A stretch of 64,000 nucleotides of DNA from Geothrix sp. 21YS21S-2 (lineage in GTDB: Bacteria; Acidobacteriota; Holophagae; Holophagales; Holophagaceae), in assembly GCF_030846775.1 (NCBI RefSeq), contig NZ_CP132910.1, positions 3,320,001 to 3,384,000 of the forward strand, written 5' to 3'. Numbering within the stretch: position 1 is the stretch's first letter; each line of letters opens with the position of its first letter. Positions 3,903 through 18,736 of the stretch are shown piece after piece. The position numbers and the translations under genes are program-made. The notes under the pieces were generated by a model. It saw only the letters and a program-made list of their open reading frames with translations, was not told the DNA's origin and did no database searches.

Positions 3903-3930
3903 CCCCCCCGGTGCTCCGGGGGGGATTTCA
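3903..3930. terminator. Rho-independent terminator between convergent genes
   Basis: CCCCCCCGG (3903-3911) and CCGGGGGGG (3916-3924) form a perfect 9-bp stem with a TGCT loop, followed by ATTTCATT. It sits between gcvPB (plus) and the minus-strand nuclease-like gene that ends at 3928. The short T-rich tail serves the plus strand best. Confidence 0.75.
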
Positions 3931-4731
3931 TTGTGCGGGCTGCCCGGCCATGGTCCAGGCGAGCAGGATCAGTTGGGCCGTATGCTGGCCGGCCTGGGCG
4001 AGCTGTTCCCGGACCGACCGGCCCTGGCGCTGACCGAACCGCACCCAGTAGGCGTCGGACCGGGTCCGGATTGCGCCTGCCGAAGGGTCGGAAGCGCGGT
4101 CATCCGCCAGGAGGGCTGGGACCAGGGCCCGGCTCTGCTCCAGCCAGCGCCAGGGGGCCTGGAGGAGGTTCGGCTCCAGGGCGGCGGGGCGCACTTCAGG
4201 TTCAAGGGTCATGCGATCCACCAGGTCGCTTTCCCAGCGGCTGTGGATGCCTCTTTGCCCGGTAGATTGCCCGTCATAGTCGGAGACCGTGTGGAGCGGC
4301 ACGTGGCTGTCGCCGACATAATGGCTGAGGAGGGAGGCCTGGTAGGCCACCCGGGCCCGGTCACCCTTCCGGAAGGCCTGGGCGAGGTCCCTCACCCGGT
4401 CCTGGATCACCCAGGGCACCTGCCCGGACCTCTGGAAGATCGCCGGCCCGACCTTTTCCCGGGCTTCGCCCAGGAGGGTGGGAACCCCCCCGGGGTAGCG
4501 GTCCATGTCGAGGAAATGCCGGGGACCTTCCAGGGGGTCGTCCTTCCACGCGTCGGGATCGCTGCTGTGGGCCTCCACGAAGCCCTCCTGGCCCTTGAAC
4601 CAGGCGGCTGGGCCCGCTGGAAGGTCCAGGATGGCCAGGCGAGCTACCATCCGGTGCCCCTTCCGCCCCCAGGCGGCCAGGGGGGAGGGGGCGAGGATGG
4701 CCATGAGCATGAGGAGAGGGCAACAGCGCAT
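3928..4731 (-). CDS. S1/P1 nuclease / zinc phospholipase C-like exported protein (copy 1)
   Basis: 267 residues with a signal peptide (residues 1-20, cleavage after PLAA), giving a mature N-terminal Trp (W21) followed by H26. In the S1/P1 nuclease and Zn-phospholipase C superfamily the N-terminal Trp and this His are zinc ligands. Further ligand-type residues appear in SHYVGDSHVPLHT and HSRWESD. The expected activity is a periplasmic or secreted phosphodiesterase on nucleic acids or phospholipids; the substrate cannot be decided. It starts 9 nt after the stop of its paralogue at 4741-5625, so the two form one transcription unit. Length and motif order match the family. Confidence 0.8.
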   Translation of the reverse strand: MRCCPLLMLMAILAPSPLAAWGRKGHRMVARLAILDLPAGPAAWFKGQEGFVEAHSSDPDAWKDDPLEGPRHFLDMDRYPGGVPTLLGEAREKVGPAIFQRSGQVPWVIQDRVRDLAQAFRKGDRARVAYQASLLSHYVGDSHVPLHTVSDYDGQSTGQRGIHSRWESDLVDRMTLEPEVRPAALEPNLLQAPWRWLEQSRALVPALLADDRASDPSAGAIRTRSDAYWVRFGQRQGRSVREQLAQAGQHTAQLILLAWTMAGQPAQ

Positions 4732-4740
4732 GGACCCATC

Positions 4741-5625
4741 TTAGTGTGCCCGTGTCGCAACATTCGAAGGGGCGTCCTGCCGGGAAGGATGGGAGACCGG
4801 GACCTGGGGCCTTCCGGCGCGGACCCAGGCGAACAGGATCATTTCAGCGGTGCGCTGGGCGGCCAAGGTGAGCTGTTCCTTCACGTGGGGTTCCTGCAGC
4901 TGCCTGAAGGCGGTCCAGTAGGAGGCGTCCATGGTCTCGAGGGGAATGGGGGGGCCCAGCCGGGCATCCTTGTCGTCGCGAAGGAGGCCCGCCACAAGGT
5001 TGTTGGACTGCCGAAGCCAGGCCCAGGGTGCCTGGGCCGGCTCCGGGTCCAGGACCGCGGGCCGGACCTCGGGCTCCCAGGCCTGGGCCTCGACGAGGCG
5101 CTTGACCAGGCCCTCCTCCCAGCGGTGGTGGACCCCGTGCTGGCGGGTCTCGTCCCCGTCATGGTTGGTGGTGGTGTGCAGGGGCACCTGGAGGTCGGCC
5201 ACGTAGTGGCTGAGGATGGAGGACCGGTAGGCGACCTCATGCGGGTCGGCCGAGGAGAACGCCTGGGTGAGGTCGCGGACCCGGTCGAGGATGGTCCAGG
5301 TCAGCTGGCCCGAGGTCCGGAACCGTTCGGGGCCCACCTTGTTCATGGCGGCGTTCTCTTCCAGGGGGACGCTGCCCGGGCCTCCGTAGGGCTCGCATTC
5401 CAGATAGTGCCGGGGGCGTTCGGTCGGGTCGTCCCATTTCCATTCGTCGGGGTCGCTGGCGTGGTCGGGCAGGGCCGCCTCCAGCCCGCGGAACCAGAGG
5501 GCCAGGTCCGGAGGGAGGTCCCTCAGGGCGCCGGCGGCAGCCAGGCGATGGCCCTGGTCGCCCCAGGCGGAGGCCGGAAGCGCCGTTAGGGCGGTGATGG
5601 CAAGGAGGCAGGAGAGCTTGTTCAT
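4741..5625 (-). CDS. S1/P1 nuclease / zinc phospholipase C-like exported protein (copy 2)
   Basis: 294 residues; signal peptide 1-20 (cleavage after PASA), mature N-terminus W21 with H26, then SHYVADLQVPLHT and HHRWEE, the zinc-ligand pattern of the S1/P1 superfamily. It is clearly paralogous to the downstream gene (same motif order, shared GxPERFxTSGQ/GPAIFQRSGQ-type region), but has a longer C-terminal extension of about 25 residues. It is the first gene of a two-gene minus-strand unit, with a plausible promoter at 5684-5711. Two tandem copies suggest separate substrates or dosage; this is inference. Confidence 0.8.
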   Translation of the reverse strand: MNKLSCLLAITALTALPASAWGDQGHRLAAAGALRDLPPDLALWFRGLEAALPDHASDPDEWKWDDPTERPRHYLECEPYGGPGSVPLEENAAMNKVGPERFRTSGQLTWTILDRVRDLTQAFSSADPHEVAYRSSILSHYVADLQVPLHTTTNHDGDETRQHGVHHRWEEGLVKRLVEAQAWEPEVRPAVLDPEPAQAPWAWLRQSNNLVAGLLRDDKDARLGPPIPLETMDASYWTAFRQLQEPHVKEQLTLAAQRTAEMILFAWVRAGRPQVPVSHPSRQDAPSNVATRAH

Positions 5626-7449: not shown

Positions 7450-7479
7450 TTGACCGGCCTCGGGCCTGGATACCACAAT
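7450..7479 (+). promoter_or_regulatory. Candidate promoter of the nuo operon
   Basis: TTGACC (7450-7455) and CACAAT (7474-7479) are spaced 18 bp, 35 nt before the nuoA ATG. A second TTGACT at 7423 has a poorer -10. The region divides the nuo operon from the divergent PilB-like gene. The assignment rests on consensus similarity only. Confidence 0.35.
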
Positions 7480-7513
7480 GGAATTCCAAACGATTGCTCC
7501 CCCGGGAGGTGCC

Positions 7514-7867
7514 ATGCGCAGTTATGTTCCAGTTTTATTGCTGATACTGGTCGCCATCGCTTTGCCGGTGGTGATCTGGGGAATTTCCAGAGTCGTTCGT
7601 CCGCATTTACCTACAGCTGCGAAATACTCGACCTACGAATGCGGCATCAAGACCGTCGCCGAGGCCCGGGAGAAGTTCTCGGTGCGCTACTACCTGGTGG
7701 CCGTCATGTTCCTGGTGTTCGACGTGGAAACGGTCTTTCTCATGCCCTGGGCCATCCAGATGAAGGAACTCGCCATCTTCGGCCTCGTCGAGATGGGCAT
7801 CTTCCTGTTCCTGCTTCTTTTCGGTTACGGGTACATCTGGTCCAAAGGAGCCCTCACATGGGAATGA
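7514..7867 (+). CDS. nuoA: NADH-quinone oxidoreductase subunit A
   Basis: 117 residues from the ATG at 7514, which has GGGAGGT 5 nt upstream; the upstream in-frame ATG at 7478 lacks this. Three membrane helices. The conserved loop TYECGIKT and the helix [15 protein letters not shown] identify NuoA, a small membrane subunit near the quinone entrance of complex I. It is the first gene of an 11-gene operon and overlaps nuoB by 10 nt. Confidence 0.94.
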
Positions 7868-8370
7868 TGAATCAACCCTCCACCTTGGAGAACATCCTCA
7901 TCACCACCAAGGTTGAGAAAGTCATCAACTGGTCCCGCGCCACCAGCGTCTGGCCCATGACCTTCGGCCTGGCCTGCTGCGCCATCGAGATGATGGCCGC
8001 CGGTGCGGCGCGGTTCGACTTCGACCGGTTCGGCTGCGGCATCTTCCGCGCCTCCCCCCGGCAGGCCGACCTGATGATCGTGGCCGGCACCGTCACCTAC
8101 AAGATGGCGCCCATCATCAAGCAGCTCTATGACCAGATGCCCGAGCCCAAGTGGGTGATCGCGATGGGCAGCTGCGCCACGGCGGGCGGGCCCTTCGACA
8201 GCTATCACACCATCCAGGGCGTGGACAAGGTCATCCCCGTGGACGTCTACATTCCTGGCTGCCCGCCCCGGCCCGAGGGGCTCCTCTACGGGTTCATGAA
8301 GCTCCAGGACAAGATCATGGCGAGCAGCATGGCTGACCGCTACAAGGAAATCTTCGAGGCGGTGGGCTGA
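7858..8370 (+). CDS. nuoB: NADH-quinone oxidoreductase subunit B
   Basis: 170 residues starting at the ATG inside the end of nuoA (AAGGAG 9 nt upstream). [11 protein letters not shown] supplies the tandem cysteines, and GSCA plus [10 protein letters not shown] supply the other ligands of the N2 iron-sulfur cluster that reduces quinone. All four cluster cysteines are present. NuoB sits in the Q-module with NuoC, NuoD and NuoI. The next gene starts 2 nt after its stop. Confidence 0.96.
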
Positions 8371-8372
8371 CC

Positions 8373-9662
8373 ATGGCAATTATCAAAGTCTGGATCGACG
8401 AAGGTTGTATCGTCTGCAACGCCTGCGAGGCGGAGTGCGCGGATGTTTTCCACGTCACGGACGATACCTGTGTGATCAACGCGGCGGTGAGGGCCGATGG
8501 CCAGACCACCGAGAACCGGGCCGAGATGGCGCCCCTCAAGGCGGACCTGCAGAAGAGCCTGGAGGCCGGCATCGTCGCCGCGGCCGCCGGGTGCCCGGTG
8601 ACCGTCATCAAGTTCGAGCAGGTGGCCGATGCCGCCCCCGAGGCGCCCGCGCCCGTCAAGGCTCCGGAACCGGTTGTCGTCGAGGCCCCCGCGCCGGCCG
8701 CCCCGGTGCAGGCCGCGCCAGAACCGGTGAAGGCCCCCGAGCCCGCGCCGGCGCCCGTCAAGGCTCCGGAACCGGTTGCCGTCGACCCCCCCCCCGCGCC
8801 CGCCACGGAAGCGCCGGCGGCTTCGGAGGCCCCGGCGGCCTATGTCTACGACCTCAAGGCCGCGCCCAACCGTCAGGTCGTGATGCCCAAGACCGTGCCG
8901 CTCCCGAGCCTCAGGACCTACCTGGAGGAGCAGGCCGCCCTGGCCGCCGCCGACGAGGCCAAGTGGAAGAAGACCCTCGCCGACTACGAGACCGCCAAGG
9001 CCAAGGCCGAGGCCGAGGGCAAGGACGCCCCCAAGGCGCCGGTGCGCCCCGTGCCCAGGCCCGACGCCAACGACATGAAGTTCCCCGCGCCCCAGGCGCC
9101 CACGGATCCCGATCTCCTGAGGCTCATGGAGGTCCTGGGCGACAAGGTGGAGGAGGCCTATCAGCAGGGCGGCGAAATGACCTGCCAGGTCCACCGGGAC
9201 GCCATCCGGGAGGCCCTCGAGCTCTGCCGCGAGGATCCGGCGCTGCGCTACGAGATGCTCGCGGACGAGACGGCGACCCACTATCCGGCGGCCCAGGGCT
9301 GGGCCTTCGCGGTGGTCTACCATCTCACCAGCATCCGCAGGCACAAGCGCCTGCGCCTGCGCATCCTGGTGCCGGAGGGCTACGAGCCCGCCAGCGCCGT
9401 CCCCGTCTATCCCACGGCCAACTGGCTGGAGCGGGAGATCTGGGACATGCTGGGCATCCGGTTCCAGGAACACCCCGACATGACCCGCATCCTCTGCCCC
9501 GAGGACTGGGAGGGCCACGCCCTCCGCAAGGAATATCCGACCCCCGGCCTCGGCCAGCGGGACATCGATTTCCGCGAGGACCGGAGCGGCGTGCTGATGC
9601 GCCTCGCGATGGAGAAGGCCGGGAACCTGGGCATCAACCTCCATCCGCCCAAAGCAGAATAG
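8373..9662 (+). CDS. nuoC: Ferredoxin-NuoC fusion (complex I subunit C with N-terminal ferredoxin domain)
   Basis: 429 residues, about twice the usual NuoC. Residues 1-85 are a single-cluster ferredoxin: C12-x2-C15-x2-C18, an extra C22, and GCPV with C74. Residues 85-150 are a Pro/Ala/Val linker containing an internally duplicated segment. Residues 150-245 are charged and Lys/Ala-rich. The canonical NuoC (30 kDa) domain occupies about 250-415, with WLEREIWDMLGI, HPDMTRIL and RKEYPTP. NuoC normally docks NuoD and NuoB and binds no metal. The attached ferredoxin could deliver electrons to the Q-module of a complex that here lacks nuoEFG (inference). The frame is continuous across a C10 tract at 8786-8795. 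No separate nuoC-only start with a good ribosome site was seen. Confidence 0.9.
   Translation: MAIIKVWIDEGCIVCNACEAECADVFHVTDDTCVINAAVRADGQTTENRAEMAPLKADLQKSLEAGIVAAAAGCPVTVIKFEQVADAAPEAPAPVKAPEPVVVEAPAPAAPVQAAPEPVKAPEPAPAPVKAPEPVAVDPPPAPATEAPAASEAPAAYVYDLKAAPNRQVVMPKTVPLPSLRTYLEEQAALAAADEAKWKKTLADYETAKAKAEAEGKDAPKAPVRPVPRPDANDMKFPAPQAPTDPDLLRLMEVLGDKVEEAYQQGGEMTCQVHRDAIREALELCREDPALRYEMLADETATHYPAAQGWAFAVVYHLTSIRRHKRLRLRILVPEGYEPASAVPVYPTANWLEREIWDMLGIRFQEHPDMTRILCPEDWEGHALRKEYPTPGLGQRDIDFREDRSGVLMRLAMEKAGNLGINLHPPKAE
8649..8785 (+). repeat. 35-bp direct repeat in the ferredoxin-NuoC linker
   Basis: Positions 8649-8683 and 8751-8785 are identical over 35 bp except for one T/C change, giving a 102-bp period (34 codons, frame preserved). 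Both copies encode APVKAPEPV. The second copy runs directly into a tract of ten C residues (8786-8795). The pattern indicates growth of the linker by in-frame duplication. Confidence 0.85.
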
Positions 9663-9671
9663 GAGTTCCTT

Positions 9672-10772
9672 GTGTTCAAGAACGAGGAGATGGAAATAAA
9701 CATGGGACCGCAGCACCCGTCAACGCACGGGGTGCTGCGCCTGAAGCTGAGACTGGACGGGGAGGTCGTCAAGAAGTGCACCCCCTGCATCGGCTACCTC
9801 CACCGCGGGGTCGAGAAGATCTGCGAGAACAAGAGCTTCTTCCAGGGCCAGGTGTGGACGGACCGCATGGACTACACGTCCGCCATCGCCAACAACCTGG
9901 GCTGGGCGGAGTCCATCGAGAAGCTCTTCGGCATCACGGTGCCGCGGCGCGCGGTGTACATCCGGACCATGCTCAACGAGTTCAACCGGCTGGCCTCCCA
10001 CCTGATCTGGCTGGCCACCCACGGCCTCGACATCGGCGCCATGACGGTGTTCATCTACACCTTCCGCGAGCGGGAGGCGATCCTGGACATCTTCGACGCC
10101 TTCTGCGGGTCGCGGCTCACCACCACGGCCTTCCGCATCGGCGGGCTGCGCGAGGACCTGCCGCCCGGGTTCGAAAAGAAGGTGCGGGACTTCCTGGCCA
10201 AGTTCCCCGACTGCATCAACGAATACGAGACCCTCCTCACGGAGAACCGCATCTGGAAGAAGCGCACCATCGGCGTGGGCATCCTGAAGGCCGAGGACGC
10301 CATCGCCATGGGCGTGACCGGGCCGGTGCTGAGGGCGGCCGGGGTGGCCTACGACATCCGAAAGGCCTTCCCCTACGCGGCCTACGCGGAGATGGACTTC
10401 GAGGTGCCCACCCGCACCGAGGCCGATACCTACGCCAGGTATCTTGTCCGCCTGGAAGAGATGCGCCAGAGCGCGCGGATCATCCAGCAGTGCATCGACG
10501 GGCTGCCGGAAGGTCCCGTGATGGCCAAGCTCCCCAAGGTGCTCCGCTCCGAGGTGAACGAGGTCTACCACGCCACCGAGGCCCCCAAGGGCGAACTGGG
10601 CTACTACCTGGTGGGCGAGAAGGGTTCGCTGAACCCCTACCGCTTCCACGTGCGGGCCCCGGGCTTCATCAACCTCCAGGCCCTGCCCATGATGATCGAG
10701 GGTGGCCTGGTGGCCGACGTGATCGCCACGATCGGAACGCTTGACGTGGTCCTGGGAGAGATCGACCGATGA
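9672..10772 (+). CDS. nuoD: NADH-quinone oxidoreductase subunit D
   Basis: 366 residues from a GTG start at 9672, supported by AGGAG 6 nt upstream. MGPQHPSTHGVLRL, GYLHRGVEK and the C-terminal DVVLGEIDR end are NuoD signatures. The 49-kDa subunit forms the quinone-binding pocket with NuoB. Its length is slightly shorter than usual because the N-terminus begins close to the GPQHP motif. It overlaps nuoH by ATGA. Confidence 0.95.
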   Translation: MFKNEEMEINMGPQHPSTHGVLRLKLRLDGEVVKKCTPCIGYLHRGVEKICENKSFFQGQVWTDRMDYTSAIANNLGWAESIEKLFGITVPRRAVYIRTMLNEFNRLASHLIWLATHGLDIGAMTVFIYTFREREAILDIFDAFCGSRLTTTAFRIGGLREDLPPGFEKKVRDFLAKFPDCINEYETLLTENRIWKKRTIGVGILKAEDAIAMGVTGPVLRAAGVAYDIRKAFPYAAYAEMDFEVPTRTEADTYARYLVRLEEMRQSARIIQQCIDGLPEGPVMAKLPKVLRSEVNEVYHATEAPKGELGYYLVGEKGSLNPYRFHVRAPGFINLQALPMMIEGGLVADVIATIGTLDVVLGEIDR

Positions 10773-11926
10773 ACGCAACCCCCGAGCTGACCCTCCTCCA
10801 GACCTCCGTGATGGCCGTCATCCAGGCCGTGTGCGTGGTCCTCTTCATCTTCATCATCGTGCCGCTGACCATCTACGCGGAACGCAAGGTGCTGGGCCAC
10901 GCCCAGGACCGCCTGGGCGCGACCCGCATCGCGGGCCACCGCGTCGGGCTCACGGGCTGGCTGAACCGCGGCATGTGGCGCATGGGCAAGGTGCCCTTCC
11001 TGTCCTACTGGCGCGGGCTGCCGATGCTGGTGGGCGACATCGCCAAGCTGTTCCTCAAGGAGGACATCGTCCCCACCAAGGCCGACCGGGCCATCTTCCT
11101 GGTCGCTCCCGCCCTTTCGCTGATCGCGTCGGTGGTGGTGTTCGCGGCGGTGAGCTTCTACCCCGGCGCGCTGTTCACCTTCCCGAAGTTCGTGCCGATC
11201 CTCGGGGGCGTGCCCTTCAACGGCTTCATCACCGACATGAACGTGGGCCTGCTGTTCATCCTGGGTATCGCCTCGGTGGGCGTCTACGGGATCGTGCTGG
11301 GCGCCTGGGCCTCCAATTCCAAGTACCCCCTCCTGGGCGGCCTGCGATCCGGCGCCCAGATCGTCAGCTACGAAGTGCCCCTGACGCTCAGCCTGCTGGT
11401 GCCGGTGGTGCTCACCGGGACCCTGAACTTCAACGAGATGACCCGAAAGCTGGCCCTGGAGACGTCCCCCATCGCCGCGCCGCTCATGGCGGTGGGCTTC
11501 CTGGTCTACTTCACCTGCGGCTTCGCCGAGACCAACCGCATGCCCTTCGACATGCCCGAGGCCGAGAACGAGCTGGTGGCCGGGTTCCATACGGAATACT
11601 CGGGCATGCGCTTCGGGTTCTTCTACCTGGCCGAGTACATCAACATGGTGGTCGTGGCGGCCCTGGCCAGCGCCTTCTTCCTGGGCGGACCCTACCTGGT
11701 GCCCTTCGGGCTGCACCGCTTCGTCCAGAACTGGCCCCTCGTCGGCGCGCCCAACGCGCTTTGGTACGTCGTGAAGATGATCTTCCTGCTGTTCGTCTTC
11801 ATCTGGGTGCGGGGGACCATTCCCCGCTACCGGTACGACCAGGTCATGGCAGTGGCGTGGAAATATCTGATTCCTTTCACGCTTGTCCTTGTGGTGCTGG
11901 CTGCGGCCGTGCGCTACGCGGCCTAG
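10769..11926 (+). CDS. nuoH: NADH-quinone oxidoreductase subunit H
   Basis: 385 residues, about eight membrane helices. YAERKVLGHAQDRLG near the N-terminus, FAETNRMPFDMPEAE and the C-terminal PRYRYDQ are classic NuoH stretches. The subunit links the Q-module to the membrane arm. It overlaps the nuoD stop codon. In operons of 14-subunit complex I, nuoEFG lie between nuoD and nuoH; here the two are directly joined. Confidence 0.96.
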   Translation: MNATPELTLLQTSVMAVIQAVCVVLFIFIIVPLTIYAERKVLGHAQDRLGATRIAGHRVGLTGWLNRGMWRMGKVPFLSYWRGLPMLVGDIAKLFLKEDIVPTKADRAIFLVAPALSLIASVVVFAAVSFYPGALFTFPKFVPILGGVPFNGFITDMNVGLLFILGIASVGVYGIVLGAWASNSKYPLLGGLRSGAQIVSYEVPLTLSLLVPVVLTGTLNFNEMTRKLALETSPIAAPLMAVGFLVYFTCGFAETNRMPFDMPEAENELVAGFHTEYSGMRFGFFYLAEYINMVVVAALASAFFLGGPYLVPFGLHRFVQNWPLVGAPNALWYVVKMIFLLFVFIWVRGTIPRYRYDQVMAVAWKYLIPFTLVLVVLAAAVRYAA

Positions 11927-11936
11927 GGGAGTGAGT

Positions 11937-12443
11937 ATGCGCAAGTTCCTAAAGACATTGTTCCCGGTCGACATCTTCAAGGGCATGAAGCTGACGGGCA
12001 CGCACTTCGCGAAGGTGTTCGCCACGGCGAACCGGCGCAAGGTGAAGATGCACGTCACCGAGGAGTACCCGGAGGTGCCCGTGAAGCTGGCGCCCCGGTT
12101 CCGCGGGCGGCTCACCATGCTCAAGGACGAGCAGGGCGAGATCAAGTGCGTGTGCTGCCTGGCCTGCGAGAAGATCTGCCCGACCCAGGTGATCACCATC
12201 GAGAGCGGGAAGAAGGAGGGGCGCAAGACCAAGATCCCCACCCGCTACGACTTCGAGATGGAGCGCTGCATCTTCTGCGAGTTCTGCGTGGAGAGCTGCG
12301 GGTTCGACTCCATCATCCTTAACCACCAGTTCGAACTGGCGGCCTACAACCGCGAGGACTTCTCCATCGGCATGCTGGGCGAGTCCCAGAACATGTTCGG
12401 GCTGACCCCGGTCGGCAAGTTCTCCTATTCGGACGAGGACTGA
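11937..12443 (+). CDS. nuoI: NADH-quinone oxidoreductase subunit I
   Basis: 168 residues from the ATG at 11937 (GGGGAGTG upstream). It holds two 4Fe-4S motifs, CVCCLACEKICP and CIFCEFCVESCG. The second motif has Gly in place of the usual Pro after the last Cys, and the first has one additional Cys. NuoI carries clusters N6a/N6b that wire electrons to N2. In this operon it would be the natural acceptor for electrons from the NuoC-fused ferredoxin (inference). Confidence 0.94.
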   Translation: MRKFLKTLFPVDIFKGMKLTGTHFAKVFATANRRKVKMHVTEEYPEVPVKLAPRFRGRLTMLKDEQGEIKCVCCLACEKICPTQVITIESGKKEGRKTKIPTRYDFEMERCIFCEFCVESCGFDSIILNHQFELAAYNREDFSIGMLGESQNMFGLTPVGKFSYSDED

Positions 12444-12447
12444 ACCC

Positions 12448-13002
12448 ATGGTCGAAACCTTCCTGGCCTTCATCGGACACAACATGTTCCTGCTCTTCGG
12501 CCTCATGGCCGTGGGCGGGGCCCTGGCCCTCGTCTTTTCCAAGAACGCGGTGCACAGCGTGGTGGGCTTCCTCTTCGCCATGCTCTCCATCGCGGGCTGC
12601 TACCTCTGCATGAGCGCCGAGTTCCTGGCGGTGGCCCAGCTCCTGGTCTACGCGGGGGGCATCGTTGTGCTGTTCCTCTTCGTGGTCATGCTGGTGGAGA
12701 TGACCAAGTACAAGGAAAAGGGCCTGTTCCAGTCCCAGACGCCCTACGCGCTGGTGGCGGTGGCCGTCGGCGCCGCAGCCATCGTCGGCGTTTTCGTGAG
12801 CACCTTCTTCACCAAGGGCGCGGAGGTTGCGCTTACGCTCGACCCGGACCTCGCCCGGGGCCTGGACGTGGCCAAGGAGAACTCCCAGGCCGTGAGCCGA
12901 GGGCTCTTCGCGGGCTACCTGCTGCCCTTCGAGATCCTCTCGGTGATCCTGCTGGTGGCCCTGATCGGCGCCGTGACGCTGGCCAAGAAGGAAAGGGTGT
13001 AG
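12448..13002 (+). CDS. nuoJ: NADH-quinone oxidoreductase subunit J
   Basis: 184 residues with five predicted membrane helices. The stretches NAVHSVVGFL and LLVYAGGIVVLFLFVVMLV are typical of NuoJ, a membrane-arm subunit between NuoH and NuoK. It starts 4 nt after nuoI and ends 4 nt before nuoK, consistent with translational coupling. Confidence 0.95.
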   Translation: MVETFLAFIGHNMFLLFGLMAVGGALALVFSKNAVHSVVGFLFAMLSIAGCYLCMSAEFLAVAQLLVYAGGIVVLFLFVVMLVEMTKYKEKGLFQSQTPYALVAVAVGAAAIVGVFVSTFFTKGAEVALTLDPDLARGLDVAKENSQAVSRGLFAGYLLPFEILSVILLVALIGAVTLAKKERV

Positions 13003-13006
13003 ACCA

Positions 13007-13309
13007 ATGGCATCCATGAATACCGTCCTCTTCATCTCCTTCCTGCTGTTCTCGGTGGGCGTGGCCGGGGTGCTCGTGCGCCGCAACGCCCTGGTGATCC
13101 TCATGTGCGTGGAGCTCATGCTCAACGCCGCCAACCTGAACCTCGTGGCCTTCGCGCGCCACGCTGGCACCGTGGCGGGACAGGCCTTCGCCCTTCTGGT
13201 GATGGGCCTGGCCGCGGCGGAGGTGGCCATCGGCCTCGCGCTGGTGGTGGCCCTCTACCGCAAGAAGGACACCATCCAGGTGGACCAGATCAACCTTCTC
13301 AAGGGCTGA
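13007..13309 (+). CDS. nuoK: NADH-quinone oxidoreductase subunit K
   Basis: 100 residues, three membrane helices, the standard NuoK length. The helix with RRNALVILMCVELMLNAANL holds the conserved membrane glutamate of the proton path, and GLAAAEVAIGLAL follows. It sits between nuoJ and nuoL as in nearly all nuo operons. Confidence 0.95.
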   Translation: MASMNTVLFISFLLFSVGVAGVLVRRNALVILMCVELMLNAANLNLVAFARHAGTVAGQAFALLVMGLAAAEVAIGLALVVALYRKKDTIQVDQINLLKG

Positions 13310-13349: not shown

Positions 13350-15590
13350 ATGATCATGGAACACGCAGTCCTGAGCACGCCACTCCACAGTTCCGTGCTC
13401 TGGCTCATCCCCTTCCTGCCGCTGTTCGGCGCCATCCTGAACGGCGCCACGGGGCGCACCCTGAAGAACAACAAGCTGGTGGACCTCATCGCCCTGGGTT
13501 CCGTGGCGGCGTCCTTCCTGCTGGTGTGCTGGACCTTCATCCAGCTCATGGGCATGGAGCCGGCGAACCGGTCCGTGACCCAGACGGTGTGGACCTGGCT
13601 GAGCCTGGGCGACGCCCAGGTGCTGGGCGGGCTGACCCACAACACCATGGCCTGGGCCTACAAGGTGGATCCCCTCTCGGCCTGCATGGGCCTGCTGGTG
13701 ACCGGGGTGGGCTTCCTCATCCACCTGTTCTCCACGGGGTACATGGCCGATGAGCGCAAGAACGGCGAGTACTACCGGTTCATGGCCTACCTGAACCTCT
13801 TCATCTTCTCCATGCTCAACCTGGTGCTGGGCGCGAACATGATCATCATGTTCCTGGGCTGGGAAGGGGTGGGGCTTTGCAGCTACCTGCTGATCGGCTT
13901 CTACTTCGACCGCGAGTACGCGGCGGTGGCGGGCAAGAAGGCCTTCGTCACCAATCGCATCGGCGACTTCGGGTTCCTCATCGGGTTCTTCCTGATCTTC
14001 ATGATCTACGGCTCGGTGGACTTCGACACGCTCATGGGCATGACCCGGGACATCCTGGCCCGGCCCGAGATCACCCTCTTCGGCGTCTCCCATGCCCCCA
14101 CCTGGTGGTTCAACCTCATCGGCTGCTGCCTGTTCCTGGGCGCCTGCGGCAAGAGCGCCCAGATTCCCCTCTACGTCTGGCTTCCGGACGCCATGGCGGG
14201 CCCGACCCCGGTCAGCGCCCTGATCCACGCGGCCACCATGGTCACCTCGGGCCTCTACATGATCGCCCGGCTGAACTTCATCTACGTCAACGCGCCGGCG
14301 GCCCTCTCCCTGGTGCTGTTCATCGGCGCCCTCACGGCGCTGGTCGCGGCCAGCATGGGCCTGGCGCAGTACGACATCAAGAAGGTGCTGGCCTACTCCA
14401 CGGTGAGCCAGCTGGGCTTCATGTTCATGGGCATGGGCGCGGGGGCCTTCTCCGCCGGCATGTTCCATGTCTTCACCCACGCCTTCTTCAAGGCCGCCCT
14501 CTTCCTCGGGTCCGGCTCCGTGATCATGGCCTGCCACCACGAGCAGGACATGCGCAACATGGGCGGTTTGAGAAAATACATGCCGTGGACCTTCGCGTCC
14601 ATGGGCATCGCGACCATTGCCATCGCCGGCATCTTCCCCTTCTCGGGCTTCTTCTCCAAGGACGAGATCCTCTGGAAGGTGTTCGAGGGCTGGTTCGCGG
14701 GCGGCACCTACCAGGGCTCCACCCTCAGCCTCGTGGCGTGGTGCATGGGCATGATCGCGGCGTTCATGACGGCCTTCTACATGGTCCGGCTGATGGCCAT
14801 GACCTTCTTCGGCGAGTACCGGGGCGCGGGGCATGACCCCCACCACCTCACCGTCCCCTCCGAGGTCCACCACGCCGCCGATGACCATGCCGGGCACGAC
14901 GACCACGCGGGCCATGACGCCCATGCCGGCCACGCGCACGCCCCGCACGAGGTGCCCTGGAACATGTGGGTCCCCGTTGCGCTGCTGGCGCTCCTGGCCC
15001 TGGTGGGCGGCTTCCTGAACATCCCCCACAGCCTCCACTGGATCGGCAGCGGCCACTTCAGCGAGTGGATCGCCCCGCTGCTCTACCAGACCCACGCCCA
15101 CGAGGCCCACGGCGCCGTCCCGGCCATGGAATACATCCTGATGTTCGTGGCCACCGTCGTGTGGGCCCCGGCCGCCATGGCCCTGGCCTGGTGGTTCTAC
15201 GGCGCGGATCCCACCTGGTCCAAGCCCAGGGCCTTCGTGAAGCGGTTCCCCGAGCTGTTCGAGTGGGTGAACGCCAAGTACTACATCGACGAGTTCTACG
15301 AAGCCGCCTTCATCGGCCCCTGCAAGCAGCTGGGGGCCCAGCTGTGGGCCTTCGACACCTGGGCGGTGGACGGCATGGTGAACGGCGCGGCGCGCTTCAC
15401 CCTCGTCAGCAGCCACGCCCTGCACTGGTTCGACGCCAGGATCATCGACGGCCTCGTGAACCTGGTGGCGTGGGTGCTCCAGCAGGTCGCCGGGGGCTTC
15501 CGCAAGCTCCAGAGCGGCCGGGTCCAGAACTACGCCTTCGTCATGTTCCTGGGCTTCCTGGTTTTCGCCTTCTGGAAGTTCCTGGCCTAG
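13350..15590 (+). CDS. nuoL: NADH-quinone oxidoreductase subunit L
   Basis: 746 residues, an antiporter-like proton-pumping subunit. LGWEGVGLCSYLLIGFYF, GKSAQIPLYVWLPDAM and the long C-terminal lateral helix region match NuoL. Between about residues 490 and 535 there is a striking His/Asp/Ala-rich hydrophilic loop with repeated HAGHD units, longer than in standard NuoL. The longer frame of the N-terminus (ATG 13350 versus 13356) differs by only two residues. The gene is separated from nuoK by 40 nt. Confidence 0.95.
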   Translation: MIMEHAVLSTPLHSSVLWLIPFLPLFGAILNGATGRTLKNNKLVDLIALGSVAASFLLVCWTFIQLMGMEPANRSVTQTVWTWLSLGDAQVLGGLTHNTMAWAYKVDPLSACMGLLVTGVGFLIHLFSTGYMADERKNGEYYRFMAYLNLFIFSMLNLVLGANMIIMFLGWEGVGLCSYLLIGFYFDREYAAVAGKKAFVTNRIGDFGFLIGFFLIFMIYGSVDFDTLMGMTRDILARPEITLFGVSHAPTWWFNLIGCCLFLGACGKSAQIPLYVWLPDAMAGPTPVSALIHAATMVTSGLYMIARLNFIYVNAPAALSLVLFIGALTALVAASMGLAQYDIKKVLAYSTVSQLGFMFMGMGAGAFSAGMFHVFTHAFFKAALFLGSGSVIMACHHEQDMRNMGGLRKYMPWTFASMGIATIAIAGIFPFSGFFSKDEILWKVFEGWFAGGTYQGSTLSLVAWCMGMIAAFMTAFYMVRLMAMTFFGEYRGAGHDPHHLTVPSEVHHAADDHAGHDDHAGHDAHAGHAHAPHEVPWNMWVPVALLALLALVGGFLNIPHSLHWIGSGHFSEWIAPLLYQTHAHEAHGAVPAMEYILMFVATVVWAPAAMALAWWFYGADPTWSKPRAFVKRFPELFEWVNAKYYIDEFYEAAFIGPCKQLGAQLWAFDTWAVDGMVNGAARFTLVSSHALHWFDARIIDGLVNLVAWVLQQVAGGFRKLQSGRVQNYAFVMFLGFLVFAFWKFLA

Positions 15591-15644: not shown

Positions 15645-17279
15645 ATGAGTCCCTGGCAAAACCTCCCGTTGTGGGTCACCGTCCTCCCCCTCCTCGGGGC
15701 CCTCTTCCTCCTCTTCGTGCCGAAGGAGAGTCGAAGGACCTTTGAACTGGGGGCCCTGGCCTTCACGGTGGCCGACTTTCTCCTGAGCATCCCGCTCTGG
15801 TTCCAGTACGACCGCTCCAGCGCCGCGGTCCAGTGGGCCTATTCCTGCGACTGGATTCCGAGCATCGGGGTCAAGTTCAGCGTGGGCATGGACGGCATCA
15901 GCCTGGTGTTGCTGCTGCTCACCACCCTCCTGGGGTTCATCGTGGTGTGGTGCTCGTTCACGGCCATCCTGGAGCGCCACAAGGAGTACTACATCTGGCT
16001 GCTGGTCATGCAGTTCAGCATGCTGGGGGTCTTCATCACCCAGGACATGTTCCAGTTCTACCTCTTCTGGGAACTGATGCTGGTGCCCATGTACTTCCTG
16101 ATCGCCATCTGGGGCGGGCCCCAGAAGCTCTACGCGGCCATCAAGCTCTTCCTCTACACCCTGGCGGGCTCGGTGCTGATGCTGGTGGCCATCCTGGCCA
16201 TCTACTTCCTCCAGTTCAAGACCACCGGCCACTACGACATGTCCATCGCCTCGTTCCAGGCCATGGCGGCGACGGTCGGCGCGCAGTCCCACACCTTCCA
16301 GACGCTCCTGGCGGTGGCCTTCTTCCTGGGCTTCGCCATCAAGGTGCCCATGTTCCCCTTCCACACCTGGCTGCCTGACGCCCACGTGGAGGCCCCCACC
16401 GCGGGCTCCGTGGTGCTGGCCGGCGTGCTCCTGAAGATGGGCACCTACGGCTTCCTGCGCTTCCTGCTGCCCATCGCCCCGGACGCCACCAAGGAGCTGA
16501 TGCCCTGGTTCATGACCCTGGCCATCATCGGCGTCATCTACGGCGCGCTCGTGGCCATGATCCAGAAGGACATGAAAAAGCTCGTGGCCTACTCCTCCGT
16601 GAGCCACCTGGGCCTGTGCATGCTGGGCATCTTCGCCCTGAACCCCAACGGCATCACCGGCGGCATCCTCCAGATGCTCAACCACGGCATCTCCACGTCC
16701 GCGCTCTTCCTCATCGTGGGCATCGTCTACGAGCGCCGCCACACCCGGCTCATCGCGGAATACGGCGGGCTGTCCAAGACCATGCCCATCTACGCGACGG
16801 TCTTCCTGATCATGACCATGAGCAGCATCGGGCTCCCGGGCCTCAACGGCTTCATCGGGGAGTTCGCCATCCTGCAGGGCGCCTTCCAGGCCGCGCCCTG
16901 GATCGCGGTGGTGGCCACCACGGGCATCATCCTGGGCGCCGCCTACATGCTCTGGCTCTACCAGCGGGCCATGTTCGGGCCCATCAACGAGACCAACACC
17001 AAGATGGCGGACCTGAACCTGCGCGAGATCGCCTACTTCGTGCCCCTGCTCATCGCGGCCTTCTGGATCGGCCTCTATCCCAAGCCGCTCCTGGCCATCC
17101 TGGACAAGCCCGTCGAGAAGCTGGTGACCCAGGTGAACCCCTCCTTCTACAAGCAGCAGCCCCTCACGGCCGCCCAGCGCGAGGCCGCCAGGCGCGGCAT
17201 GGCCGCCATGGCCGCCCCGGCCCATGCCGAGGGCCACGCCGAAGGGCACGCCGAGACCAGCCATGGAGGGGGTGAGTAA
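15645..17279 (+). CDS. nuoM: NADH-quinone oxidoreductase subunit M
   Basis: 544 residues, multi-helix antiporter-like subunit. FYLFWELMLVPMYFLI, FHTWLPDAHVEAPTAGSV and YSSVSHLG are NuoM signatures. The C-terminus ends in a His/Gly/Glu-rich tail with HAEGH repeats, echoing the loop in NuoL. It overlaps nuoN by one nucleotide (TAATG). Confidence 0.95.
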   Translation: MSPWQNLPLWVTVLPLLGALFLLFVPKESRRTFELGALAFTVADFLLSIPLWFQYDRSSAAVQWAYSCDWIPSIGVKFSVGMDGISLVLLLLTTLLGFIVVWCSFTAILERHKEYYIWLLVMQFSMLGVFITQDMFQFYLFWELMLVPMYFLIAIWGGPQKLYAAIKLFLYTLAGSVLMLVAILAIYFLQFKTTGHYDMSIASFQAMAATVGAQSHTFQTLLAVAFFLGFAIKVPMFPFHTWLPDAHVEAPTAGSVVLAGVLLKMGTYGFLRFLLPIAPDATKELMPWFMTLAIIGVIYGALVAMIQKDMKKLVAYSSVSHLGLCMLGIFALNPNGITGGILQMLNHGISTSALFLIVGIVYERRHTRLIAEYGGLSKTMPIYATVFLIMTMSSIGLPGLNGFIGEFAILQGAFQAAPWIAVVATTGIILGAAYMLWLYQRAMFGPINETNTKMADLNLREIAYFVPLLIAAFWIGLYPKPLLAILDKPVEKLVTQVNPSFYKQQPLTAAQREAARRGMAAMAAPAHAEGHAEGHAETSHGGGE

Positions 17280-18736
17280 TGTCCTTCGCCGCCGGCTTGT
17301 GGGGGACCCTGGTCAGGGATCTTCCGCTCATCTACCCGCAGCTCCTCATCCTGGTGGCCGCCACGGTCATGCTCTGGCCGGGCGATATGTTCGTGCCCAA
17401 GGGCGGGAAGAGCCAGTGGGCCTTCATCACCGTCCTGGTCCTCGTGGCCGCGGGGTTCCTCGTCAGCCGCACGCCTCCGGGCGCGGGCTTCTCCCGCATG
17501 TATCAGGTGGACGGCATCACCCGGGGCTTCCAGTACCTGTGCCTCGCCGCGGGCGTGATCACCGTGCTCCTGAGCCAGCTTCAGCTGGACCTGCACAAGG
17601 ACCAGTCCGTGGAGTACTACTCCCTGATCCTCTTCTCGGTGACGGGCATGCTGTTCCTGGTGGGGGCCACCGACCTGGTGTCCATCTACTTCTCCCTGGA
17701 GCTCATGGCGCTCTGCATCTACATCCTGGTGGCGTACTTCCGCGAACAGGAGCGGAGCATCGAGGCGGGGGTGAAGTACTTCCTGCTGGGGGCCTTCTCC
17801 AGCGGCATCCTTCTGTTCGGGATCAGCCTCCTGTTCGCCGCCACGGGCGGCGTCACCACCAACCTCGCGGACCTCAACGAGAAGCTGGCCCTTCTGCCCA
17901 TGTCCAGCAACCTGCTGGTATTCCTGGGAATCCTCATGGTGCTGGTGGGCTTCTGCTTCAAGGTGGCCGCCGTCCCCTTCCACATGTGGAGCCCGGACGC
18001 CTATGACGGCGCCCCCACGGCCATCACCGCCTTCATGTCCATGGCCCCCAAGGCGGCGTCCCTGGCGGCCTTCGCCCGCGTCTTCGGATCGGGCTTCGGC
18101 GGCCTCCACGGCGAGTGGATGGCGCCCCTGGCCTTCGTGGCCGGAGCCAGCATGATCCTGGGCAACATCGCCGCCCTCCGTCAGCAGACCATGAAGCGGC
18201 TGCTGGCCTATTCCAGCATCGCCCACGTGGGCTACATGCTGCTGGGCGTGCTCAGCTCCAACGTTCCGGGCGGGGTGCAGGCCATCTGGCTCTACATGCT
18301 CACCTACCTGCTCATGCAGAGCGGGGCCTTCGGCATCATCATCTACCTCCAAGGCAAGGGCGAAGGGGAGCGCATCGAGGACTTCCGGGGGCTGTCCCGC
18401 ACCCGGCCGGTGCTGGCCTTCGCCATGATGGTCATCCTGCTGAGCCTGGCGGGCATACCGCCCCTGGTGGGCTTCTTCAGCAAGTTCTACCTGTTCAAGC
18501 TGGCCATCGAGCAGGGCCACGTCACCCTCACGGTCATCGCGCTGCTCACCAGCGCCGTGGCGGCCTACTACTACCTGGCCGTGGTGGCGGCGATGTACTT
18601 CAAGGAGCCCGCCGAAGGCGAAGTCAAGCCCATGGGCGGGATCACCGGCCTGGTGGTGGGCGTCTCCTGCGCCCTGGTGCTGGTGGGGACCCTCTTTGGG
18701 GCCTACCTGCTGGACTGGGCCGCCACGATCCTCTAG
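17279..18736 (+). CDS. nuoN: NADH-quinone oxidoreductase subunit N
   Basis: 485 residues, about 14 membrane helices, antiporter-like. YFSLELMALCIYILVAYF, FHMWSPDAYDGAPTAITAF and AYSSIAHVGYMLLG mark NuoN. It is the last gene of the nuo run and is followed by a perfect hairpin without a T-tract, then the atp genes on the same strand. Confidence 0.95.
   Translation: MSFAAGLWGTLVRDLPLIYPQLLILVAATVMLWPGDMFVPKGGKSQWAFITVLVLVAAGFLVSRTPPGAGFSRMYQVDGITRGFQYLCLAAGVITVLLSQLQLDLHKDQSVEYYSLILFSVTGMLFLVGATDLVSIYFSLELMALCIYILVAYFREQERSIEAGVKYFLLGAFSSGILLFGISLLFAATGGVTTNLADLNEKLALLPMSSNLLVFLGILMVLVGFCFKVAAVPFHMWSPDAYDGAPTAITAFMSMAPKAASLAAFARVFGSGFGGLHGEWMAPLAFVAGASMILGNIAALRQQTMKRLLAYSSIAHVGYMLLGVLSSNVPGGVQAIWLYMLTYLLMQSGAFGIIIYLQGKGEGERIEDFRGLSRTRPVLAFAMMVILLSLAGIPPLVGFFSKFYLFKLAIEQGHVTLTVIALLTSAVAAYYYLAVVAAMYFKEPAEGEVKPMGGITGLVVGVSCALVLVGTLFGAYLLDWAATIL

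Follow-up and report, generated by a model that had tools for sequence, protein, structure and literature searches.

The window, the whole 64,000-nucleotide stretch of DNA analysed here, comes from a genome that its named relatives place in the Holophagaceae (Acidobacteriota), within a host group of soil and freshwater Acidobacteria. It carries a contiguous complex I operon on the forward strand with the gene order nuoA-B-C-D-H-I-J-K-L-M-N. As the initial annotation had it, nuoD is followed directly by nuoH with no NADH module between them; nuoE, nuoF, and nuoG are absent from the operon here, and likewise in relatives with and without the fusion described below. The first gene, nuoA (7478–7867), is an open reading frame whose product is 44% identical to NuoA of the canonical complex I encoded elsewhere in this genome, and nuoB (7864–8370), encoding the cluster N2 subunit, is assigned by Pfam Oxidored_q6 (E = 5e-30). 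Downstream of the fused nuoC lie nuoD (9672–10772), nuoH (10769–11926; PF00146, E = 5e-97), and nuoI (11937–12443), which has two 4Fe-4S motifs (N6a and N6b). The remaining genes, nuoJ (12448–13002), nuoK (13016–13309), nuoL (13350–15590), nuoM (15645–17279), and nuoN (17279–18736), were assigned by identity to the canonical set. NuoD keeps the HPSTHG and DRMDY quinone-site motifs and matches complex I with E = 4e-106, compared with 8e-47 for membrane-bound hydrogenase, and is on these grounds of the quinone-reductase kind rather than the hydrogenase kind. The 11 nuo genes include none for NdhS, NdhV, or NdhO, the accessory subunits of NDH-1.

Some further features of the window are recorded here as separate observations. 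Residues 495–535 of NuoL (14832–14954) are rich in histidine (13 of 41 residues) and form a possible metal-binding segment, and another possible segment of this kind is the histidine-rich C-terminus HAEGHAEGHAETSH of the proton-pumping subunit NuoM (17223–17279). On the reverse strand, positions 3928–5625 encode two adjoining, related proteins that appear to be secreted and S1/P1-type nuclease-like, both with an AWG(R/D)xGHR start.

The nuoC gene (8373–9662, forward strand) begins with an ATG 2 nt downstream of nuoB and ends 9 nt short of the start of nuoD. Its translation product of 429 amino acids consists of an N-terminal ferredoxin (residues 1–85; 8373–8627), a Pro/Ala linker (about residues 86–156; 8628–8840), and NuoC. 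The NuoC part begins with an extension (YVYD..PKTVPLP..; 8841–9170), which is conserved in both fused and unfused Holophagaceae, and continues into the core domain (residues 272–391; 9186–9545), which matches Pfam Complex1_30kDa (PF00329) with E = 1.9e-37. The linker, predicted to be long in the initial annotation, does indeed extend over about 72 residues, of which 65% are Pro or Ala, and it varies between congeners. Cysteines occur in the ferredoxin domain at positions 12, 15, 18, 22, 33, and 74, and include the CxxCxxC...CP ligand pattern of a monocluster [4Fe-4S] ferredoxin. The window copy matches Fer4_15 and Fer4_13 below the curated Pfam cut-offs (E = 0.01 and 0.05), which fits with a stretch between the third and fourth ligands that is about 19 residues longer than in short members of the subfamily from Bacteroidales, Omnitrophota, and marine archaea. 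The cut-offs are reached by a free paralogue encoded elsewhere in the genome (G000:C1:1619759-1620007), which is 75% identical to the fused domain, and by the fused ferredoxin domains of genome G054. Despite the weak score of the window copy, the assignment of residues 1–85 as a single-cluster ferredoxin is secure as judged from sequence and predicted fold, and bears out the original reading of the domain.

As for the cluster ligands, C12, C15, C18, and C74 are invariant in all fused and free copies that reach those positions. The initial annotation had also listed C22, and this part of its assignment does not hold, because 11 of 54 copies have Ser or Thr at this position, which rules it out as a ligand. 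The ferredoxin domain is under purifying selection: between congeners, a simple counting method applied to three genomes gives dN/dS values of 0.06–0.21 for the ferredoxin, 0.14–0.18 for the NuoC core, and 0.19–0.45 for the linker. The ferredoxin domain modelled alone reaches a pLDDT of 93.1, and its 13 best structural matches are all monocluster ferredoxins (Z 6.5–8.6, rmsd 2.0–2.7 over 56–70 residues). The closest solved structures are those of B. thermoproteolyticus, H. thermophilus Fd1, M. tuberculosis Fdx, P. furiosus, D. africanus FdI, and T. maritima. The fused ferredoxin is predicted to bind a [4Fe-4S] cluster. The full-length AlphaFold model, with a pLDDT of 52, is too poor for placing the ferredoxin domain.

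The genome is a single contig of 5.25 Mb and contains a second complex I set besides the operon of the window. Of this set, nuoEF lie at 3.074 Mb, nuoH-N at 3.561 Mb, the gene for a NuoG of 475 residues at 3.586 Mb, and nuoABCD near 3.620 Mb. Loss of the NADH module from the genome is therefore ruled out. The two sets share 32–52% identity. Among the family genomes where both genes could be placed, canonical nuoC and nuoF are at most 12 kb apart in 42 of 46. The exceptions are one g4 genome and, in the genus of the window, the three complete genomes. The genome-wide findings given here rest on family searches and selected genome stretches. Because nuoF lies beside the other nuoC in 42 of the 46 genomes, NuoEFG are assigned to the other complex I, which makes the complex of the window a second, 11-subunit enzyme. 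The initial annotation had held that nuoEFG elsewhere in the genome, together with NADH-dependent activity of this complex, would speak against its proposal; of the two, nuoEFG are present, but the family neighbourhoods tie them to the other complex I. The canonical genes in the window's genome are scattered over four places (L009, L096, L097, and L033), unlike most other genera, where canonical nuoC and nuoF occur together. Possible sources of reduced ferredoxin in the genome comprise five POR-domain genes and four HydABC-like sets. As a side observation, locus L007 (4699–17118) holds two divergent HydABC/NuoEFG-like sets within 13 kb, one of them with a NuoF-like protein of 1077 amino acids.

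The fusion is not unique to the window. Across 77 family genomes, the 11-subunit nuoC is present in all genera, save where drafts are incomplete, and a family-wide search for the same fusion recovered it in 4 of the 11 Holophagaceae genera, namely g1 (the genus of the window), g2, g6, and g7. Within g1 it occurs in three complete genomes, i.e., that of the window and two more, and in two drafts, with G070 being unfused. Its presence in the complete genomes G066 and G067, as well as in the other genera, rules out chance and an assembly or frame artefact. Four of the genomes (G068, G069, G056, and G057) are drafts with the fusion on broken contigs, and the G058 copy is interrupted by an in-frame stop, perhaps through an error of assembly. 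Two tandem ferredoxins precede NuoC in all genomes of g2 (three) and g7 (five), as well as in one of the two from g6 (L137-L140, L142-L144, L147, and L148), at the same operon position. In the tandem form, a linker of 45–109 residues joins the two ferredoxins, and the one leading on to NuoC is shorter (about 20–34 residues where measured). The g2 genomes are only 0.9–1.2 Mb in size, with 43–47% GC at the fusion locus, and the two-ferredoxin NuoC is kept in all three. In g3 (Geothrix), NuoC is unfused and a free ferredoxin is found in a conserved neighbourhood, while in g4 and g11 the complex is present and the family-wide search found no such ferredoxin. Outside the Holophagaceae, 396 sampled Acidobacteriota genomes gave one marginal match, and within the phylum the ferredoxin subfamily is essentially confined to this family.

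The fused ferredoxins all fall on one side of a branch with 98/99.7 support, apart from the free ferredoxins, and a recent duplication inside the window's genus is not favoured as the source of the fused domain, though the AU test does not reject it (p-AU 0.188). In a tree of NuoB, NuoC, and NuoD combined, the fused genomes fall in two places, and the origin may be either one old fusion with subsequent losses or two fusions. Two observations on other members of the subfamily can be added. The free paralogue in G066 (L155 9612–9815) is only 67 amino acids long, without the segment found between ligands three and four in its relatives. In marine group II archaea (L064, L066, L068-L073, L075, L076, and L080), ferredoxins of the same KVWIDEGC subfamily are fused to a flavodoxin-like domain, in a single protein of about 640 amino acids that also contains additional sequence.

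In cyanobacterial NDH-1, ferredoxin docks on NdhH and on the basic hairpin that separates the two cluster motifs of NdhI, at a distance of 9.6 Å from cluster N6a (PMC6992706, PMC7021789). The NuoI of the window has GKKEGRK at this hairpin (residues 91–97; 12207–12227), which we propose as a ferredoxin dock. The KKEGRK sequence occurs in the 11-subunit NuoI of the window and in 19 of 20 relatives, the remaining one having KMEGRK; it is absent from the canonical NuoI of the same genome, and NADH-type NuoI structures in the PDB have EREDG-like residues there. KKEGRK is also present in unfused relatives, which suggests that the 11-subunit complex probably accepted ferredoxin already before the fusion took place. 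The net charge of free ferredoxins is mostly −10 to −14 and that of fused domains −4 to −11, with the reservation that these copies do not represent independent samples. Since less electrostatic steering is needed once a donor is tethered, the lower negative charge of the fused domains agrees with, but does not prove, a model in which the donor is tethered.

Based on these observations, we consider it likely that the fused domain is a built-in ferredoxin input arm feeding NuoI, which would make the complex a ferredoxin:menaquinone proton pump. The tethered [4Fe-4S] cluster would receive its electrons either from soluble reduced ferredoxin or straight from a ferredoxin-reducing enzyme, for which 2-oxoacid:ferredoxin oxidoreductases and HydABC-type enzymes are candidates. 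The tether would allow the ferredoxin to contact the basic NuoI hairpin, at the site otherwise taken by the NADH module, and electrons would then pass along N6a, N6b, and N2 to menaquinone while the membrane arm pumps protons. The enzyme would accordingly operate as a ferredoxin:menaquinone oxidoreductase with its own carrier, alongside the NADH-type complex I of the same genome. A second ferredoxin may have been added in series in three other genera. The tether does not appear to be required for complex function, since most family members (Geothrix) run the 11-subunit complex unfused, and g4 and g11 do so without such a ferredoxin. An input arm to NuoI had been suggested in the initial annotation, and the proposal finds partial support in the ligands, selection, fold, recurrence and duplication of the domain, in the basic hairpin, and in the separate NADH complex I. 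The bound cluster, docking on NuoI, the direction of electron flow, the donors that load the arm, and the type of quinone are predicted elements of this reading. It is also reasonably probable that in this branch of complex I the NADH module has been replaced by a covalent wire of one or two ferredoxins, which would identify the class of donor in the Holophagaceae, with the two-ferredoxin version representing a stepwise rebuilt input arm.

Complex I is in principle reversible, and the gene anatomy would be identical for both directions of electron flow. The same arrangement could let the proton-motive force and menaquinol reduce the tethered ferredoxin, supplying low-potential electrons to soluble reductive enzymes, e.g., for nitrogenase or reductive carboxylation. 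Nitrogen fixation in some Holophagaceae (PMC11561045) is in line with such a role, but each of the three small g2 genomes (0.9–1.2 Mb) has retained the fusion, and if g2 is Acidiparvus, for which no nitrate or sulfate reduction genes are reported (PMC11561045), the need for ferredoxin made by reverse flow would be less obvious. The genome of the window moreover already has candidate ferredoxin sources, and we regard reverse flow as unlikely. Somewhat less probable still is that the ferredoxin domain serves as a landing site for NuoEF-like or HydABC enzymes, with electrons derived from NADH or H2. The detached nuoEF pair and the four HydABC-like sets in the genome would suit such an adaptor, as would the reported co-expression of an FeFe-hydrogenase with the 11-subunit complex in Desulfitobacterium (PMC11238625). 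However, most relatives have nuoEF clustered with their canonical nuoABCD, and the three g2 genomes combine a two-ferredoxin fusion with no NuoF relative besides the canonical one. A redox sensor or assembly element off the electron path would suit the working of unfused relatives without a fused ferredoxin and the long and variable linker, but is very improbable given the invariant ligand cysteines, the purifying selection on the domain, the tandem duplication in three genera, and a NuoI hairpin of the ferredoxin-docking kind.

An input arm of tethered ferredoxin bears on a question raised for related enzymes, as the direct donor of the 11-subunit complex I was stated to be still unknown in a 2024 study (PMC11238625). 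According to the account given there, which cites Moparthi and Hagerhall 2011, no donor protein shared by all bacteria of this kind could be found in a search for one, and a docking platform that accepts several donors was put forward. A natural fusion of ferredoxin to a core subunit constitutes independent genetic evidence for ferredoxin as the donor, and gives a single-gene handle on the question, in the form of one ligand cysteine or the whole domain. The occurrence of none, one, or two fused ferredoxins within one family also offers a rare view of how an ancient proton pump can gain an input arm. Mesoterricola appears to be represented by cultured isolates whose genomes are complete; its members are facultative anaerobes that reduce Fe(III) (PMC13064192). 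Acidiparvus/UBA12189 is a streamlined freshwater genus, and the paper describing it mentions neither complex I nor ferredoxin (PMC11561045). Our search of open-licence papers found no report of a ferredoxin–NuoC fusion, single or tandem, which is not proof of absence from the literature.

Both the 11-subunit complex I and the ferredoxin-driven NDH-1 are already known, and the part without a match in the papers searched is the ferredoxin covalently fused to NuoC. The 11-subunit complex of Desulfitobacterium hafniense DCB-2 shares all 11 genes and their order with the operon of the window, likewise lacks nuoEFG, and has a quinone-reducing Q-module. Its donor is thought to be ferredoxin, PFOR, or a hydrogenase, though this is unproven, and unlike in the window, a fused ferredoxin is not reported (PMC11238625). 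Cyanobacterial and chloroplast NDH-1, a ferredoxin:plastoquinone oxidoreductase, likewise lacks the NADH module and receives electrons from ferredoxin into N6a at the basic NdhI hairpin, but it uses a soluble [2Fe-2S] ferredoxin whose docking is aided by photosynthesis-specific subunits (PMC7021789, PMC6992706), whereas the window has a [4Fe-4S]-type ferredoxin covalently tethered to the homologue of NdhJ (NuoC). The monocluster ferredoxins of Pyrococcus furiosus, Thermotoga maritima, Bacillus thermoproteolyticus, and Desulfovibrio africanus (FdI) have the ligand pattern and fold in common with the window domain, which differs in being fused to a complex I subunit and, as noted above, in exceeding the short members of its own subfamily by about 19 residues. 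Gene fusions inside the peripheral arm are likewise represented by NuoCD and NuoBCD, but while these join subunits of the complex to each other (PMC12361115), the fusion in the window joins an outside electron carrier to the complex.
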